Of a stretch of DNA of 64,000 nt, positions 42,761 to 61,903 are shown piece by piece. A program made the position numbers and the translations under genes. The notes below the pieces were generated by a model. It was given only the letters and a program-made list of their open reading frames with translations, did not search any database and had not been told where the DNA came from. Source of the DNA: Algibacter marinivivus (GTDB lineage Bacteria > Bacteroidota > Bacteroidia > Flavobacteriales > Flavobacteriaceae); the NCBI RefSeq assembly GCF_003143755.1, contig NZ_QFRI01000001.1:434001-498000 (forward strand), written 5' to 3'. Each line of letters starts with the position of its first letter. Within the stretch, counting starts at the first letter, position 1.

Positions 42761-42865
42761 GCGCCCGCGTGAGGGATTGCAGTGGAAAGCCCACAGCGAG
42801 GTACGAGCGAGGACTTGTAACAAAAAGCCCGACCCCCGATTTTTATTCGGGGGACACGCCAAAAA
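42761..42865 (+). repeat. intergenic repeat family, copy B (with inserted hairpin)
   Basis: Left end GAGGGATTGCAGTGGAAAGC, central GAGGTACGAG, then GGACTTGTAAC and AGCCCGACCC, all shared with copy E. The usual right end TTGTGGTAACGCC is replaced by a hairpin, CCCCCGA (42834-42840) with TCGGGGG (42847-42853), then ACACGCC. The copy lies between divergent rhomboid and rarA genes. Confidence 0.75.
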
Positions 42866-44267: not shown

Positions 44268-44278
44268 TTTTATTTATT

Positions 44279-44363
44279 GAGCGTTACCACAAGGGTCGGG
44301 CTTTTCAATACAATCTTTTTCTCGTGCCTCTAAAAAGGATTTCCATTACAATCCCTAACGCAA
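44279..44363 (-). repeat. intergenic repeat family, copy C
   Basis: On the minus strand: TTGCGTTAGGGATTGTAATG, central GAGGCACGAG, then AAAAAGATTGTATTG and AGCCCGACCCTTGTGGTAACGC. It is nearly identical over its length to copy D at 50661-50749 but in the other orientation. It fills the gap between the 3' ends of rarA and the convergent gene at 44387. Confidence 0.88.
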
Positions 44364-44386
44364 AGTTACGTTTTCAAAACAAACTT

Positions 44387-50660: not shown

Positions 50661-50749
50661 TTTGCGTTAGGGATTGTAATGGAAATCCTTTTTTGATGCA
50701 CGAGAAAAAGATTGTATTGGAAAGCCCGACCCTTGTGGTAACGCCCAAA
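50661..50749 (+). repeat. intergenic repeat family, copy D
   Basis: TTGCGTTAGGGATTGTAATG at the left, GATGCACGAG centrally, GATTGTATTGGAAAGCCCGA then CCCTTGTGGTAACGCCCAAA at the right. Nearly identical to the reverse complement of copy C. It ends 3 bp from the stop codon of the TPR gene and lies upstream of mpl. Confidence 0.88.
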
Positions 50750-51920: not shown

Positions 51921-54900
51921 ATGAATTCAGCACAAGTGAAGCAATCACTATTTTTATTTATGATTATACTATTTTCAACGATTTCTCAAGCCCAAAATCC
52001 TAACTATCAAGATTTATGGACTAATGTTGATAAATTTGAAGTTGACGGTTTACCAAAGTCTGCACTAAAACTTGTTAATGATATTGAGAAACAAGCTTTT
52101 AAAGATGATAACCATCCGCAACTTATAAAAACCATGCTTTTTAAAAGTAAGTATGCGTTGGTTTTAGAAGAAGATGCGCAACTTAGTATTATAAATGATT
52201 TTAAGGCTAAAATTGCTAAAAGCGAATTTCCAACTAAAAATATTCTAGAAAACTTATTGGCTAATTTATACTGGCAGTATTTTAACCAACATAGATGGCA
52301 GTTTTATAACCGTACCAAAACATCTGAGAAAGTAGATACTGAAGATTTTAGAACTTGGGATTTACAAACGCTTTTTAGTGAAATTCATGTGCATTACCAA
52401 AATTCGTTAGAGAATGGTTTAATGCTACAACAGGAGTCTTTAAAAACCTATAATGTTTTGTTAAATGAACAGAAAGGGTCTAAAATATATCGCCCTTCCC
52501 TTTTTGATTTTTTAAGCCATAACGCCTTAGCGTTTTATAAGACGAACGAAACACAAATTACCAAACCTGCTTATAAATTTGAGATTGATAATCCTGGTTT
52601 TTTAGCTGATGCTGAAACGTTTTCTACTTTAAACATAGAATCAAAAGACTCGACCTCGTTACAACTAAACACTTTAAAAATTTACAAAGAACTGATTCGT
52701 TTTCATCTGAAAGATGAATCGCCTTTTGCATTAGCTGATGTTAATATTGAACGTTTAAAATTTGTTAACCAACATGCAACATTTTCTGATAAACAAGATA
52801 TTCTTTTAAAAGCATTGACTGCTGAAAGCAAAAAGAATAAAGCACATGAAATTTCTAGTTTGTATGATTTTGAAATAGCTTCTATTTACTATCAGCAGAG
52901 TCAATCTTATCAGCCAAAAACTAATGAAGAACAGCGATGGAAAGCAAAAGAAGCTTTAGACATATGTAATCAAGTTATTTCTAAATTTCCAAAAAGTAAA
53001 GGTGCTGAAAAATGCACCATATTAAAGTCGCAAATTGAACAACTAACGCTTCAAATTACTACCGAAGACTTTTTACCTATTCAGCATCATGCTAAATTAT
53101 TATTGAGGTACAAGAATTTAGACGACTTAAAATTCAATATTTATAAAATCTCTGAAAATCAATATAAAAAGTTTATAAAGACATACAGAAAAGATGAGCA
53201 ACTGCAGTTTATTAAAAATTTAGATGCCCATGTAACTTGGAATTCTAAATTAAAAAATGAAAAAGACTACCAAATGCATTCCACTGAAGTTTTATTACCA
53301 AAGCTTAATAATGGCAGGTATTTAGCAGTCGCATTTGTAGATAATAAACAAGACACTTTTGCTTTTTCAAACCTACAAGTTACAAACATGGCTTTGGTTG
53401 AAACCAATACTCCTAACCATAAAATTTTTCAAATTATAGATAGAAATAATGGAACTCCTATTACTAATGCAAAAATTGAAGTTTCTTATGATTCTAGAAA
53501 TGTAAAAAAGAGATCTTCAAAAAGTTATTCCACAAATCAATTAGGTGAAATTAAAATTGAAAAAGACAAGAATTGGTATAACGACATTAACCTTAAAGTA
53601 GAATACAATAATGACATCGCCTATTTTGGCAACTTCTACATCAATCAAAAACGCAATCAACCTGAAGAAAGTATTAGTTACAAATCCTTTTTATTTACTG
53701 ACAGAAGTATTTACAGGCCAGGACAAACTGTTTATTTTAAAGCGATTGCTATGAAAACTCTTGATGGAAAATCAGAAGTTTTAGTAAACGAAAATGTATA
53801 TGCTGTTTTATATAATGTGAATGGTGAAGAGGTAAAAGAATTAAATTTTAAAACTAACGATTTTGGTTCTATTTCGGGAGAATTTATTTTACCAAATAAT
53901 GGATTGAATGGGCAATATCATATTGAATTTGATACTGAATCTGGTTTTAATATGGATAGCTATACCTATTTCTCAGTAGAAGAATACAAACGTCCAAAAT
54001 TTGAAACCAAGTTTAAACCTATTACTGAAACTTTTAAAATTAACGACTCGGTTACTGTTAAAGGAAACGCATTAGCTTATGCAGGTAGTAATATTACAGA
54101 CGCTAAAGTAGTATATCGTGTAAAAAGAAACGTGCAATATCCACGTTGGTATTTTTGGTATAGACCTTGGGTAAATAGTGAACCTCAAGAAATCTCTCAT
54201 GGTGAAACTACAACCAATAATAAAGGCGAATTTGAAATTACGTTTAAAGCCATTCCTGACCAAAGTGTAGACAAAAGTAGCTTGCCTATTTTTAATTACG
54301 AAGTGACAGCAGATGTTACCGATTTAAATGGTGAAACCAGAAGCGCTACAACTATTGTAAATGTGGGTTATCATGCATTAATAGCTAATATGAGTATTGA
54401 TAGTGCTTTGGATAAAACCAAAAAGAATCATAATATTTCTATTGACACTAAAAATCTTAATGGCGAATTTGTTCCAGCAAAAGGAACGGTGAAAATATAC
54501 AAACTTAAAGCGCCAAATACTGTTTTAAGACCACGACCATGGGCAGCTCCAGATTATAAAGGGTTTTCTGAAGAAGATTTCAAAAAACTATTTCCGCATG
54601 AAGCTTATGATAACGAACAGCATTCTAATAATTGGGAAAAGGGTAAACTCGTTTTTGTTTCCTCTTTTAACACAGGAAATGAAACAACACTTAATCTTGG
54701 TAAAATAAAGAAATGGCAATCTGGTGAATACGTTATTATTCTAGAAAGCAAGGACAAATTTGGGCAATTAGTAAAAGATGAAATTAAAACGATGCTTTAT
54801 AGTGAAGATGATAAAACGCCTGCGGATAGCCAATTGTTTACAATTTCGAATGATAAATCGTCTTATAATATTGGAGATACCGCAAACATATCCATAGGTT

Positions 54901-57900
54901 CTGCGGCTAATAATGTATCGGTTACGGTTACTATTGAAAAGGATAAAAACATCATCAAAACAGAGATTATTAAGCTAAATGCTAATAAAAAAACAATCTC
55001 TATTCCTGTTAATGAAAATGATTTAGGTGGTTTTGTGGTACATTATAGTTTTGCTGTTTTTAATAGTTTTAAATCTGGTTCACTAGCTATTTCAGTGCCA
55101 TATCCTAAAACTAACTTAGAAATTGAAACGCTTACCTTTAGAGACAAATTACAACCAGGAACTGACGAAACTTGGCAATTTAAAATTAAAGGCCCTTATG
55201 GCGACAAAGTAAGTGCAGAATTGTTAGCAAGTATGTATGATGCTTCTTTAGATCAGTTTAAACCACACGCTTGGAATTTTAACCCTATCAATAATCCTGT
55301 TTATTATTCTAGAAGCAGCAGAAACGCTAATCGTAGTTTTGGAACACAAAGTTTTAGAGTGTATAATAATAAGTCGCGAATAAGTTACCCACAACAATAT
55401 TATGACCAGTTGAATTGGTTTGGGTTTAGTTTTAATAATAATCGCTGGGTTTACAATAACTATATAAATCAACTTAAAAGAAAGTATGAAGTCAAAAACA
55501 TACTCAGTTATGACGATTCATTAAAAAAAGGAATAGTTACAGGGATTGTTTATGACTATACGGGCTCTCCAATGCCGGCTGCTAATGTTATAATTAAAGG
55601 AACATCAATTGGAGTAACAGCAGATTTCGATGGAGAATTTTCAATAAACGCTAAAGAAAATGACATATTAGAAATAAGCTATGTCGGATACATAAATAAT
55701 GAAATCAAATTAGACAAAAATAACCGCTTATTGATTTATATGATTGAAGATACTCAAGGACTCGATGAAGTTGTTATTTCCGCTATGGGTGTTAAAAGAG
55801 AAAGCAAAAGTGTCGGATACGCTGTTAATGCTGCCAAAGTTGAATCTTATAATGAAGCAGAAAATGATGTTTCACTAGATTTAATTGGTAAGATACCCGG
55901 AGTACAAATTAATAGTGACTCCTTATCTAATGAGAAAACCAACAAGCAACAAACCTTCGACAACATCAAAATCCGTAAAAACCTTCAAGAAACCGCCTTT
56001 TTCTTTCCACAGTTAAAAACAGATGAAGCAGGAAATATAAGTTTCAGTTTTACAACACCTGAAGCTTTAACCCAATGGAAATTACGATTATTAGCAAACA
56101 CTAAAACTTTGGAAAGTGCTACTAAAACATTAACCACAGTCACTCAAAAAGAGTTGATGGTAATTCCAAATGCACCACGTTTTTTACGTGAAGGTGATGA
56201 CATTACAATAAGTACCAAAATTGCTAATCTTACAGAAAAAACACTTTCAGGCGAAGCTAAATTAATTTTAACAGATGCTATTTCAGGGAAAGATATCACT
56301 TCAAAGCTTGTCAGGTCAAGCGCAGTCGAGACCTTTTCAGTAGAAAAGGAAAATAACACTCAAGTTTCATGGATGCTAAGCATTCCTGATAACGTGCAAG
56401 CAGTACAATACAAAATTGTTGCTAAATCTGAAGATTTTAGCGATGGGGAGCAAAATGCATTACCAGTACTTTCTAACAGAATATTGGTTACCGAAACATT
56501 ACCTATGTGGGTAAGAAGTAACCAAAGCAAAACATTCTCTTTAGATAAATTAAAGACAAACACGTCTTTAACTTTAAAGCATCATAAATTGACTTTGGAG
56601 ATGACCTCTAACCCTGCGTGGTATGCAGTTCAAGCACTTCCTTATTTAATGGAATACCCTTATGATTGTAATGAGCAAACATTTTCGAGATATTATGCTA
56701 ATGCGTTAGCAAGTCATATTGCAAACTCTAATCCTAGAATTCAAGAGGTATTCAACCAATGGAGAAATACCGATGCACTACTTTCAAATCTAGAAAAAAA
56801 TGAAGAGCTCAAATCTATTTTAATTCAAGAAACGCCTTGGTTACGTGATGCACAAAGTGAAACTGAGCAGAAAAAACGTATTGCGTTATTATTCGATTTG
56901 AATAAAATGAATAATGAATTACAATCTGCTTTAAATAAACTGAAAGCAAATCAAAAGCCATCTGGAGCTTGGGCTTGGTTTAAAGGTGGTAGAGAAAATC
57001 GATACATTACGCAACATATTATTACTGGTTTTGGTCATCTTAATAAACTAAATGTCACCCTGAGCGCAGTCGAAGGGTCTCAAATGCTTCAAAAAGCCAT
57101 CAATTATTTGGATAATGAATTTGTAAAAGAGTATAAAGACATTAGAAAATACGACTCAAAAATCGATTTAAGTAAAGACCACTTAAGTTATACACAACTA
57201 CATTATTTATATATGCGAAGCTTCTTCCCAGATATTAAAAAATCAAAAGAAGTTGAAAATATATCCGAGTATTACCAAACGCAAATTCAAAAGTATTGGC
57301 TATCCCGTTCGTTATACTCTAAAGGGTTAATGGCTTTAGTGTCTCATAGAAATAAAGATTCGAAAACAACTTCGAAAATTTTAAAATCTTTAAAAGAAAC
57401 GAGTATTACATCTGAAGAATTAGGCATGTATTGGAAAGCAAATACTAATTCGTGGTATTGGTATCAAGCGCCTATTGAAACGCAAGCCTTACTTATTGAA
57501 GCTTTTAGTGAGATTGAAAATGATACCGAAACTATTGATAATCTAAAAATATGGTTGCTTAAAAACAAGCAAACCAATCGATGGAAAACAACAAAAGCAA
57601 CTACAGATGTTGTTTATGCTTTATTGCTTCAAGGTAGTGATTGGCTATCTGTTACTGAAATGGTTGACGTGGTTATTGGCGGACAACAAATTGAACCTTC
57701 AAAACTTGAAGCCGTAAAAATTGAAGCTGGAACAGGCTATTACAAAACATCTTGGAATACTTCTGAAGTTAAACCAGAAATGGCAGATGTAACCATATCT
57801 AAAAAAGGAAAAGGTGTTGCTTGGGGCGGTTTACATTGGCAATATTTTGAAGATTTAGACAAAATAACCTCAGCAGAAACACCGCTTAAGCTAAAGAAAA

Positions 57901-58301
57901 AGTTATTCTTAAAAACCAATACTGATACTAGTGAAGAAATCTCAGAAATCGCTTCCGAAACTGATTTAAATGTTGGTGATTTAGTTAGAGTGAGGATTGA
58001 ATTACGAAGTGACAGAAATATGGAATTTGTTCACATGAAAGATATGCGCGCTTCTGGATTAGAACCTGTAAATGTATTAAGCCAATATAAATGGCAAGAT
58101 GGTTTAGGGTATTATGAAAGTACAAAAGATGCCTCAACAAATTTCTTTTTTGATTATTTACCAAAAGGCGTATATGTATTTGAATATGATTTAAGAGTGA
58201 ATAACGCTGGAATTATGAGCAATGGCTTTACTACAATTCAAAGTATGTATGCCCCTGAATTTAGCAGTCATAGTGAAGGCACACGAATTCAGATTAAATA
58301 A
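51921..58301 (+). CDS. alpha-2-macroglobulin-like protein with SusC-like insert
   Basis: 2126 residues, exported (signal peptide about 1-24, ending SQA). The N-terminal two thirds hold TPR-like and MG/MG2-type beta domains (SYKSFLFTDRSIYRPGQTVY at about 590, SVEEYKRPKFETKFKPI). Residues about 1204-1331 are a CarboxypepD_reg-like domain, a TonB-box-like GLDEVVISAMGVKRE (about 1280) and LIGKIPGVQIN, all matching the SusC N-terminus. The A2M domain starts at IRKNLQETAFFFPQLKTDEA (about 1347). The thioester motif CNEQ is at 1583-1586, inside YPYDCNEQTFSRYY, so covalent trapping of proteases is possible. Two palindromic elements lie in frame (residues 1465-1471 and 1713-1719). Its closest neighbours do not explain its job. 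Confidence 0.9.
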   Translation: MNSAQVKQSLFLFMIILFSTISQAQNPNYQDLWTNVDKFEVDGLPKSALKLVNDIEKQAFKDDNHPQLIKTMLFKSKYALVLEEDAQLSIINDFKAKIAKSEFPTKNILENLLANLYWQYFNQHRWQFYNRTKTSEKVDTEDFRTWDLQTLFSEIHVHYQNSLENGLMLQQESLKTYNVLLNEQKGSKIYRPSLFDFLSHNALAFYKTNETQITKPAYKFEIDNPGFLADAETFSTLNIESKDSTSLQLNTLKIYKELIRFHLKDESPFALADVNIERLKFVNQHATFSDKQDILLKALTAESKKNKAHEISSLYDFEIASIYYQQSQSYQPKTNEEQRWKAKEALDICNQVISKFPKSKGAEKCTILKSQIEQLTLQITTEDFLPIQHHAKLLLRYKNLDDLKFNIYKISENQYKKFIKTYRKDEQLQFIKNLDAHVTWNSKLKNEKDYQMHSTEVLLPKLNNGRYLAVAFVDNKQDTFAFSNLQVTNMALVETNTPNHKIFQIIDRNNGTPITNAKIEVSYDSRNVKKRSSKSYSTNQLGEIKIEKDKNWYNDINLKVEYNNDIAYFGNFYINQKRNQPEESISYKSFLFTDRSIYRPGQTVYFKAIAMKTLDGKSEVLVNENVYAVLYNVNGEEVKELNFKTNDFGSISGEFILPNNGLNGQYHIEFDTESGFNMDSYTYFSVEEYKRPKFETKFKPITETFKINDSVTVKGNALAYAGSNITDAKVVYRVKRNVQYPRWYFWYRPWVNSEPQEISHGETTTNNKGEFEITFKAIPDQSVDKSSLPIFNYEVTADVTDLNGETRSATTIVNVGYHALIANMSIDSALDKTKKNHNISIDTKNLNGEFVPAKGTVKIYKLKAPNTVLRPRPWAAPDYKGFSEEDFKKLFPHEAYDNEQHSNNWEKGKLVFVSSFNTGNETTLNLGKIKKWQSGEYVIILESKDKFGQLVKDEIKTMLYSEDDKTPADSQLFTISNDKSSYNIGDTANISIGSAANNVSVTVTIEKDKNIIKTEIIKLNANKKTISIPVNENDLGGFVVHYSFAVFNSFKSGSLAISVPYPKTNLEIETLTFRDKLQPGTDETWQFKIKGPYGDKVSAELLASMYDASLDQFKPHAWNFNPINNPVYYSRSSRNANRSFGTQSFRVYNNKSRISYPQQYYDQLNWFGFSFNNNRWVYNNYINQLKRKYEVKNILSYDDSLKKGIVTGIVYDYTGSPMPAANVIIKGTSIGVTADFDGEFSINAKENDILEISYVGYINNEIKLDKNNRLLIYMIEDTQGLDEVVISAMGVKRESKSVGYAVNAAKVESYNEAENDVSLDLIGKIPGVQINSDSLSNEKTNKQQTFDNIKIRKNLQETAFFFPQLKTDEAGNISFSFTTPEALTQWKLRLLANTKTLESATKTLTTVTQKELMVIPNAPRFLREGDDITISTKIANLTEKTLSGEAKLILTDAISGKDITSKLVRSSAVETFSVEKENNTQVSWMLSIPDNVQAVQYKIVAKSEDFSDGEQNALPVLSNRILVTETLPMWVRSNQSKTFSLDKLKTNTSLTLKHHKLTLEMTSNPAWYAVQALPYLMEYPYDCNEQTFSRYYANALASHIANSNPRIQEVFNQWRNTDALLSNLEKNEELKSILIQETPWLRDAQSETEQKKRIALLFDLNKMNNELQSALNKLKANQKPSGAWAWFKGGRENRYITQHIITGFGHLNKLNVTLSAVEGSQMLQKAINYLDNEFVKEYKDIRKYDSKIDLSKDHLSYTQLHYLYMRSFFPDIKKSKEVENISEYYQTQIQKYWLSRSLYSKGLMALVSHRNKDSKTTSKILKSLKETSITSEELGMYWKANTNSWYWYQAPIETQALLIEAFSEIENDTETIDNLKIWLLKNKQTNRWKTTKATTDVVYALLLQGSDWLSVTEMVDVVIGGQQIEPSKLEAVKIEAGTGYYKTSWNTSEVKPEMADVTISKKGKGVAWGGLHWQYFEDLDKITSAETPLKLKKKLFLKTNTDTSEEISEIASETDLNVGDLVRVRIELRSDRNMEFVHMKDMRASGLEPVNVLSQYKWQDGLGYYESTKDASTNFFFDYLPKGVYVFEYDLRVNNAGIMSNGFTTIQSMYAPEFSSHSEGTRIQIK
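56313..56334 (+). repeat. 22-bp palindromic element inside the macroglobulin gene, copy 1
   Basis: Arms AGGTC (56313-56317) and GACCT (56330-56334) enclose AAGCGCAGTCGA. It is read in frame as RSSAVET. Preceded by TGTC, as in copy 2. The codons AGC GCA GTC GAG are unlike the AT-rich local usage. Confidence 0.75.
57057..57078 (+). repeat. 22-bp palindromic element inside the macroglobulin gene, copy 2
   Basis: Arms ACCCT (57057-57061) and AGGGT (57074-57078) enclose GAGCGCAGTCGA. It is read in frame as TLSAVEGS. The 11-nt core AGCGCAGTCGA is identical to copy 1 but the stem differs, and both give SAVE in the same frame. Confidence 0.8.
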
Positions 58302-61743: not shown

Positions 61744-61860
61744 TTGCGTTAGGGATAGCAGTGGAAAGCCCACAGCCTGATCCCGACCCCGATAGCTATC
61801 GGGGTTGGGATCAGTGCGAGGACTTGTAACGGATAGCCCGACCCTTGTGGTAACGCCCAA
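61744..61860 (+). repeat. intergenic repeat family, copy E (with nested palindrome)
   Basis: TTGCGTTAGGGATAGCAGTG at the left, GCGAGGACTTGTAACGGATA and GCCCGACCCTTGTGGTAACG at the right. Compared with copy B the central part is replaced by a 36-bp near-perfect palindrome at 61778-61813 (arms TGATCCCGACCCCGATAG and its partner, one G-T pair, no loop). It lies between divergent DUF4136 and sdpR-like genes. Confidence 0.88.
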
Positions 61861-61903
61861 AGAGCAAATCATTTTAACCTAAATATTTGCTAAATTAAAA
61901 TAA

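Follow-up and report, generated by a model that had tools for sequence, protein, structure and literature searches.

Unrelated Short Palindromes Re-use the Same Loops of an Alpha-2-Macroglobulin-Like Gene among Flavobacteriaceae

Introduction

How two palindromes with a common core and different arms come to lie in the same frame of a single gene is the question raised by a stretch of 64,000 nucleotides from the genome of Algibacter marinivivus (hereafter the window; assembly GCF_003143755.1, contig NZ_QFRI01000001.1, positions 434,001 to 498,000 of the forward strand). According to Pfam, the gene carries bMG10, MG2, A2M and A2M_BRD domains; a CarboxypepD_reg-like domain is also found at residues 1206-1286, between the bait-region and A2M domains. 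A preliminary description had reported the two elements, took palindromes of this type to be common between flavobacterial genes, and read the pair as mobile hairpins tolerated or domesticated within a coding sequence. Direct reading confirms two TGTC-tagged palindromes with 5-bp arms, a common 11-nt core and a shared frame. Palindrome 1 consists of AGGTC (56313-56317), the core AAGCGCAGTCGA (56318-56329) and GACCT (56330-56334), and palindrome 2 of ACCCT (57057-57061), the core GAGCGCAGTCGA (57062-57073) and AGGGT (57074-57078); in the 51921-58301 open reading frame (ORF) they are translated as ..RSSAVET.. and ..LSAVEGS.., respectively. The 11-mer AGCGCAGTCGA occurs in the window at these two places only, even when one mismatch is allowed, against an expected number of 0.13. 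The features of the locus, all on the forward strand, are as follows.

51921..58301, +, gene for a bacterial alpha-2-macroglobulin-like protein (A2M), 2126 aa, with both palindromes inside (ORF list; Pfam)
56309..56312, +, TGTC tag ahead of palindrome 1 (read from the sequence)
56313..56334, +, palindrome 1 (site 1, residue ~1466), reads SSAVET (sequence; arm covariation; relatives with other families)
56553..56588, +, site 4 (from residue 1545), without a palindrome in the window; palindrome-like DNA in the relatives L057, L070 and L120
57053..57056, +, TGTC tag ahead of palindrome 2 (read from the sequence)
57057..57078, +, palindrome 2 (site 2, residue ~1714), reads TLSAVEG (sequence; relatives with other families and arms)
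57495..57539, +, site 3 (residues 1859-1873), without a palindrome in the window; relatives have GTCATTCAGAGCG.., SAVE or other palindromes

The Core as a Dispersed Repeat

A genome-wide search for the core, proposed in the preliminary description, bears out its view of the palindrome as a dispersed repeat. The source genome (G000; 3.34 Mb, 99.89% complete) contains 24 exact copies of the 11-mer and none of the reversed pattern, and TGAGCGCAGTCGA gives 36 matches at no more than one mismatch. The core is present in nine of ten genomes of the genus, in 24, 4, 4, 16, 3, 1, 36, 14, 0 and 32 copies (controls, 0 or 1). Across the phylum its distribution is patchy: TGAGCGNAGTCGAA was found in 51 of 148 Bacteroidota genomes, with at least five copies in 22 of them and a maximum of 192, and the reversed control occurs once in 10 of the 148 genomes and never twice in one, so that single matches to the core in a genome may be due to chance. 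The view of it as an intergenic palindrome is also supported: ORFs of at least 150 aa contain 11 of the 24 exact copies, among them both window copies, in frame, and the other 13 have no such ORF around them. Most listed copies are single, but some have a second, oppositely oriented core about 45 bases away (e.g., G000:C4:538875+ / 538920- and C1:168070+ / 168114-). The consensus is an optional (T/C)GTC tag, short variable complementary arms and the core GAGCG-N-AGTCGA.

The arms differ among copies yet stay complementary, that is, they covary. In the source genome, the 24 copies show 21 different arm pairs, with on average 4.10 of the five positions paired, against 2.33 when the right arms are re-dealt among copies (highest of 2000 deals, 3.29); the 23 A2M copies at sites 1 and 2 have 15 distinct pairs, with 4.07 positions paired against 2.42 after re-dealing. 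TGTC stands ahead of the core in 15 of the 24 genomic and 20 of the 23 A2M copies, and the copy in the adenine deaminase gene (L049) is tagged with CGTC. Hairpin energy was tried as a marker of the element and rejected. Each window element folds at -2.5 kcal/mol (single-stranded DNA, + strand), an ordinary value that 39 of 200 and 119 of 200 shuffles reach or exceed in stability, and a scan of 81 A2M genes in 34-nt steps gave 160 hairpins, with the densest bin at site 1 (12 genes) and site 2 unmarked. Because hairpin energy failed in this role, covariation is taken as the evidence for the arms.

A second repeat, about 90 bp long (GCGTTAGGGAT.. GGAAAGCCC .. GCCCGACCCTTGTGGTAACGCCC), is present in the window in several divergent copies:

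42767-42835, +, copy of the second repeat
44277-44364, -, copy of the second repeat
50661-50748, +, copy of the second repeat
61746-61861, +, copy of the second repeat, containing CCCCGATAGCTATCGGGG, which resembles the palindrome at A2M site 3 of the relative L078
7724-7751, -, fragment of the second repeat

Among the 11 exact copies borne by ORFs, those of L042, L043 and L053 are doubtful as coding. Clear cases of genes with the palindrome in frame are, by Pfam, those of a ketoacyl synthase, a sulfatase, a homocysteine methyltransferase (at the C-terminal end) and an adenine deaminase (between its two domains); a copy with one core mismatch lies in the gene of an IcmF-like mutase. In the methyltransferase gene (L044:484-1515), the palindrome supplies the last residues, VTLSAVEES, and is followed by the stop. 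A 517-aa ORF without a Pfam hit (L037:681-2231, near G000:C1:581005) has three palindromes of the family, two of them exact copies and the third a near copy; they are grouped within about 160 bp and differ in frame, with both orientations represented.

The adenine deaminase copy is a clean 24-nt insertion with an empty site in relatives. The segment measures 54 nt in the source genome and 30 nt in relatives, the insert being absent from all 16 relatives with sequence there (one further row has none). Removal of CCCTTCGACTGCGCTCAGGACGGG (24 nt) leaves FESSSNQIRV, against FESSSKQIRV in relatives, as read by hand, and no target duplication is needed. Of 19 relatives of the ketoacyl synthase, L203 has another palindrome at this position (TGTC-ATTCT..AGAAT), L204 and L205 have a further insert that is only partly palindromic, and most of the rest have none. 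The mutase copy is common to L170 and L171, and L175 has a longer insert inside it.

A Y1 transposase was considered as the enzyme that mobilises the element, and the link was rejected. The Y1_Tnp profile (PF01797) finds nothing in G000 at E 0.001, in a search whose control matched in 5 of 14 named genomes. Within the genus, 8 of 10 genomes have Y1_Tnp; copy number does not follow it, since G008 has Y1_Tnp and 0 core copies and G000 has 24 copies and no Y1_Tnp. Neither a core nor a near core lies within about 1.5 kb of Y1 at the 10 loci examined among the 13 matches in the genus, and six longer stretches around such matches contain one lone core, 2.2 kb away.

Different Palindromes at the Same Codons of A2M

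A contig scan led to 224 confirmed A2M relatives, the best 80 of which (L055-L134) were kept, so that with the window gene the set comprises 81 genes. By title, nearly all of these 80 belong to Flavobacteriaceae, and the nearest are Algibacter. In this set, sites 1 and 2 are loops re-used by different palindrome families. As read in the aligned DNA, site 1 holds one of four families, namely SAVE (AGGTCGAGCGCAGTCGAGACCT), CCCC (..TTCTTCCCC..GGGGAAGTTAGA.GGGGCTTC), GGCTC (GGTGTCTGAGGCTCTCGAAGACACC plus a second half-palindrome) and CTCCCT (TTCTCTCCCT..GGGAGAGATG..). At site 2, the SAVE family appears with the arms ACCCT, ACGTC, ACATC, ACTCT and others, next to a GTCATTC type (GTCATTCAGAGCG..AGCGAAGAATCT and kin). 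With classes assigned by hand and decayed copies placed by eye, the 81 genes divide at site 1 into 13 SAVE, 13 CCCC, 5 GGCTC, 4 CTCCCT, 13 of other lengths and 33 of 63 nt without SAVE, and at site 2 into 19 SAVE, 11 GTCATTC, 6 composite and 45 none/other. In the composites (L068, L069, L070, L078, L080 and L133), a reversed core of the same family is nested within the loop of another palindrome.

Whether each family is a repeat in the genomes that carry it was also assessed; the evidence is strong in the case of SAVE and GGCTC, and weak in that of CCCC and CTCCCT. In the genomes of its carriers (L057, L058, L070, L080 and L077, respectively), GGCTC gives 9, 5, 10, 18 and 15 matches, whose arms vary yet stay complementary; three genomes whose A2M gene has another family (L055, L061 and L124) give 0, as does the control. 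The strict CCCC pattern has 1-4 matches in seven of eight carrier genomes, several of these being just the A2M copy, and CTCCCT occurs at two places in the genome of L061, at one each in those of L117 and L095, and at none in those of L090 and four others.

The comparison with homologues proposed in the preliminary description supports its reading, with corrections. Relatives that encode the same residues do so with the same core DNA and other arms, and not with unrelated codons. As regards insertion, SAVE at site 1 has the same length (63 nt) as the 33 relatives without it; its presence does not lengthen the gene and therefore represents replacement, not pure insertion. The clean addition of an insert is documented by the adenine deaminase copy. 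A preference for one frame likewise holds within the A2M set and not beyond it: all 27 copies detected by a strict core scan lie at the four sites and 22 of the 23 forward copies are in one frame, the exception being L084, and in other genes of the source genome other frames and the opposite strand occur. Cores in the 80 A2M loci fall within A2M genes in 26 of 29 cases, an enrichment over the flanks on which little is leaned because these genes account for over half of the DNA compared and the copies are related.

On a gene tree built without the site columns, in which 27 of the 78 inner branches are starred as supported and 27 are open, several starred sister genes differ in their palindromes. 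At site 1, the families differ between the window gene (SAVE) and L124 (CCCC), between L101 (SAVE) and L125 (CCCC), and between L058 (GGCTC) and L060 (CCCC); L087 has none and L090 has CTCCCT. At site 2, the window gene (SAVE) and L124 differ, as do L106 (SAVE) and L118, the second member of each pair having the GTCATTC type, and an element stands against none/other in L069 (composite) and L067, and in L096 (SAVE) and L103. The starred pairs L109/L110, L081/L086 and L097/L108 show no difference. Nucleotide identity over the 50 codons upstream and the 50 downstream, respectively, is 95.3 and 90.7% for the window gene and L124 at site 1, 94.7 and 88.7% for L058/L060, and 97.3 and 95.3% for L067/L069 at site 2; it is lower for L106/L118 (84.0 and 83.3%) and L101/L125 (76.0 and 80.7%). 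The sisters L084 and L089 (95% support) have the site 2 core in different frames and with different arms.

When elements only are considered, family identity at sites 1 and 2 carries little phylogenetic signal. Site 1 (35 genes) requires 15 family changes on the tree against a shuffled mean of 17.5, and 38 of 500 shuffles go as low; for site 2 (36 genes) the figures are 14 changes, a mean of 14.8 and 187 of 500 shuffles. A signal is present once empty states are included, with 35 changes against 43.4 at site 1 (1 of 500 shuffles as low) and 29 against 32.7 at site 2 (11 of 500). Site 3 is clearly vertical (21 changes against 31.4; 0 of 500).

Loops, Length Change and the Third Site

Length variation in the last ~770 codons of the gene is largely confined to four palindrome loops. 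A scan of 192 windows of 12 residues, from residue 1345 to ~2110 in the 81 genes, gave a median length spread of 0, with peaks only at 1457-1476, 1853-1876 and 1705-1724 and a weaker one at 1537-1556; the next largest spread (sd 0.80) rests on 2 of the 81 genes. In this part of A2M, length thus seems to change chiefly through palindromic repeats.

A structure model covering residues 1340-2126 has low overall confidence (mean pLDDT 58.1, pTM 0.45), and only its locally confident parts were used. In model numbering, site 1 is placed in coil preceding strand 130-135 (block pLDDT 85), site 2 takes up the coil that joins helices 355-370 and 382-405 (62), and site 3 is the short coil from helix 507-526 to helix 530-544 (77); sites 1-3 are thus all predicted to be coil linking strands or helices. 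Thioester domains are matched by model residues 225-545, including the complement C5 TE domain (Z 15.9, 252 aligned) and E. coli A2M (Z 15.0). A search of solved structures by sequence with the A1 profile returned none at E 0.001.

At site 3, 41 of the 81 genes have the 45-nt form of the window, 33 a form of 66 nt, 3 a form of 87 nt with SAVE, and 4 others. The peptide VIQSE[A/T]KNL or a relative is recognisable in most 66-nt forms, and a near-intact palindrome, by a loose pattern, in 8 of the 33; palindromes found by eye are CCCGATAGCTATCGGG in L078 and CCTGATCTTCATCAGG in L084. The SAVE copies at this site in L067, L080 and L118, which are not close kin, have DNA in common beyond the element, which hints at exchange or old shared ancestry there. 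It is at this third loop (residue ~1864), where the peptide is mostly kept and the palindrome mostly lost, that the reading of the palindromes as domesticated finds its best support: the peptide outlived the palindrome.

Origin of the Loop Palindromes

The palindromes are probably REP-like non-autonomous elements that arrive repeatedly and survive in a few permissive loops. Copies would land at many places in the genome, and those surviving within genes would be the ones that keep the frame and lie where the protein, in a loop or linker, tolerates the gain or replacement of a few residues. The loops of A2M would have accepted them repeatedly, the palindrome family resident in a lineage ending up there in place of an older one, and the palindrome would then decay and leave an ordinary peptide, as at site 3. 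This implies that copies move rather than arise in place, presumably in trans by means of an HuH-type or other single-strand-DNA enzyme, and that the loops are re-used owing to tolerance and not to target choice; arm complementarity would be kept by template switching or by selection. Several observations count against repeated arrival, namely the absence of a length gain with SAVE at site 1, unlike plain insertion, the weakly repeated status of CCCC and CTCCCT, the tree signal with empty states, the vertical descent of site 3, the DNA shared there by L067, L080 and L118 beyond the SAVE element, the weak hairpins, and the 27 of 78 branches that are open.

A more directed process is unlikely: hairpin-guided single-strand insertion or conversion via the remnant of the old palindrome would swap families in frame, as site-directed cassette exchange, and would be the main engine of loop diversification. 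If this were true, cassette loops might perhaps even be useful to a surface anti-protease.

Allele exchange, in which palindromes enter rarely and short gene tracts are passed among related bacteria by homologous recombination, would produce patchiness; the families are indeed patchy on the tree, and the likeness of L067, L080 and L118 at site 3 extends beyond the element. Flank identity was compared between same-family and different-family pairs over 5, 6-20 and 21-60 codons on each side, leaving out pairs of more than 82% overall identity and non-element rows, and same-family pairs have no excess at either site (+0.007, +0.005 and +0.004 at site 1; -0.009, -0.004 and -0.005 at site 2). Values as high were obtained in 87 to 921 of 1000 shuffles overall, and over 5 codons in 264 for site 1 and 792 for site 2. 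Together with sister genes whose flanks are alike around unlike palindromes, as in the window gene and L124 at site 1, this makes such exchange an improbable source of the pattern.

In-place rewriting, by replication template switching (quasi-palindrome correction) and arm turnover without any new arrival, is very unlikely to suffice. It accords with the covariation of the arms and with a half-way form at site 2, where L109 looks chimeric, its left arm being that of L110 and its right arm that of L120, around one core and with only 1 of 5 arm positions paired, a mixture that also fits the template switching invoked above under repeated arrival. It cannot, however, convert SAVE into the unrelated CCCC or GGCTC, and it leaves unexplained both the 24-nt insert of adenine deaminase and the match of the GGCTC family of A2M with a genomic repeat family.

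That SAVE is a conserved functional peptide, its DNA alike by common descent only, would account for the single frame of 22 of the 23 forward A2M copies; it is scarcely credible given that 13 of 24 cores are not in long ORFs, that cores also occur in different frames and on the opposite strand, that arms vary yet stay complementary, and that sister genes are without the peptide. Chance likeness of two short stretches, to which the weak hairpin energy might point, can be dismissed with 2 copies found against 0.13 expected in the window and 24 against 0 genome-wide.

Relation to Known Palindromes and Significance

The closest known system is that of the CGTC-tagged REPs, short dispersed palindromes with an unpaired CGTC/TGTC (or CCTC) end tag and heterogeneous stems, which are reported from five phyla including Bacteroidetes, have intragenic copies, are without an associated transposase and are proposed to insert neutrally in linkers and loops (Di Nocera, De Gregorio and Rocco 2013, PMC3733652). 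The present element resembles them in its tag, found in most genomic and A2M copies as TGTC, in its dispersal, in its intragenic copies and in having no Y1_Tnp match in G000. On the other hand, CGTC-tagged REPs are described with a stem of 8-9 bp, a loop of 4-5 nt, complementary AT at the first two stem positions and a 3-nt tail that is mostly CCA (PMC3733652), whereas the element has 5-bp arms and a 12-nt core, its window arms begin with AG and AC (only the first pair being A-T) and its window copies are followed by TTT and CTC. Head-to-head dimers predominate among CGTC-tagged REPs (PMC3733652); for the element, opposed pairs occur besides the single copies that form the majority of those listed. 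Because of the mismatches in stem, loop, AT start and tail, the element is held to work like a CGTC REP and is not filed as one.

Two other systems are comparable in part. Rickettsia palindromic elements (RPE; Ogata et al. 2000, 2002) are the classic example of palindromes in frame, residing in unrelated protein genes and kept in the protein, according to PMC10969869, and RPE-4 and RPE-6 have been classed as CGTC REPs (PMC3733652). The likeness is that of in-frame residence, here in A2M (twice), ketoacyl synthase, IcmF-like mutase, sulfatase and adenine deaminase; the first reported RPEs measure ~150 bp and belong to a different phylum (PMC10969869). GTAG REPs with their RAYT/TnpAREP transposases are short dispersed palindromes with a foot tetranucleotide, often in head-to-head pairs (PMC6006769, PMC3733652), and share with the element a short dispersed palindrome and a tetranucleotide at one foot; unlike theirs, its tag is not GTAG/GTGG, and G000 has no RAYT/Y1 match at E 0.001.

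In the literature searched, by title or the start of the abstract, the core 12-mers led to no paper on a microbial repeat, the available part of the RepRanger paper (PMC12306157) has no match for intragenic, and no account of palindrome swapping at fixed codons was found in a search that covered sources other than subscription journals and most supplements. The nearest is PMC3733652, which in its available part describes different REPs at about one site in two Xanthomonas recB genes, the sole precedent found for swapping, and gives no account of family-wide swapping at fixed codons of one orthologue. Intragenic REPs were thus already known; what is new is that unrelated palindromes have repeatedly occupied the same fixed loops of one orthologue, and how much of its length change they account for.

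These observations bear on the question of whether intragenic REP-like palindromes are exceptional accidents or contribute steadily to changes in proteins. The 80 A2M relatives provide a natural map of the loops that accept insertions, and, through the comparison of strains, the A2M loops offer a system in which to seek the mover of tagged palindromes that have no known transposase.
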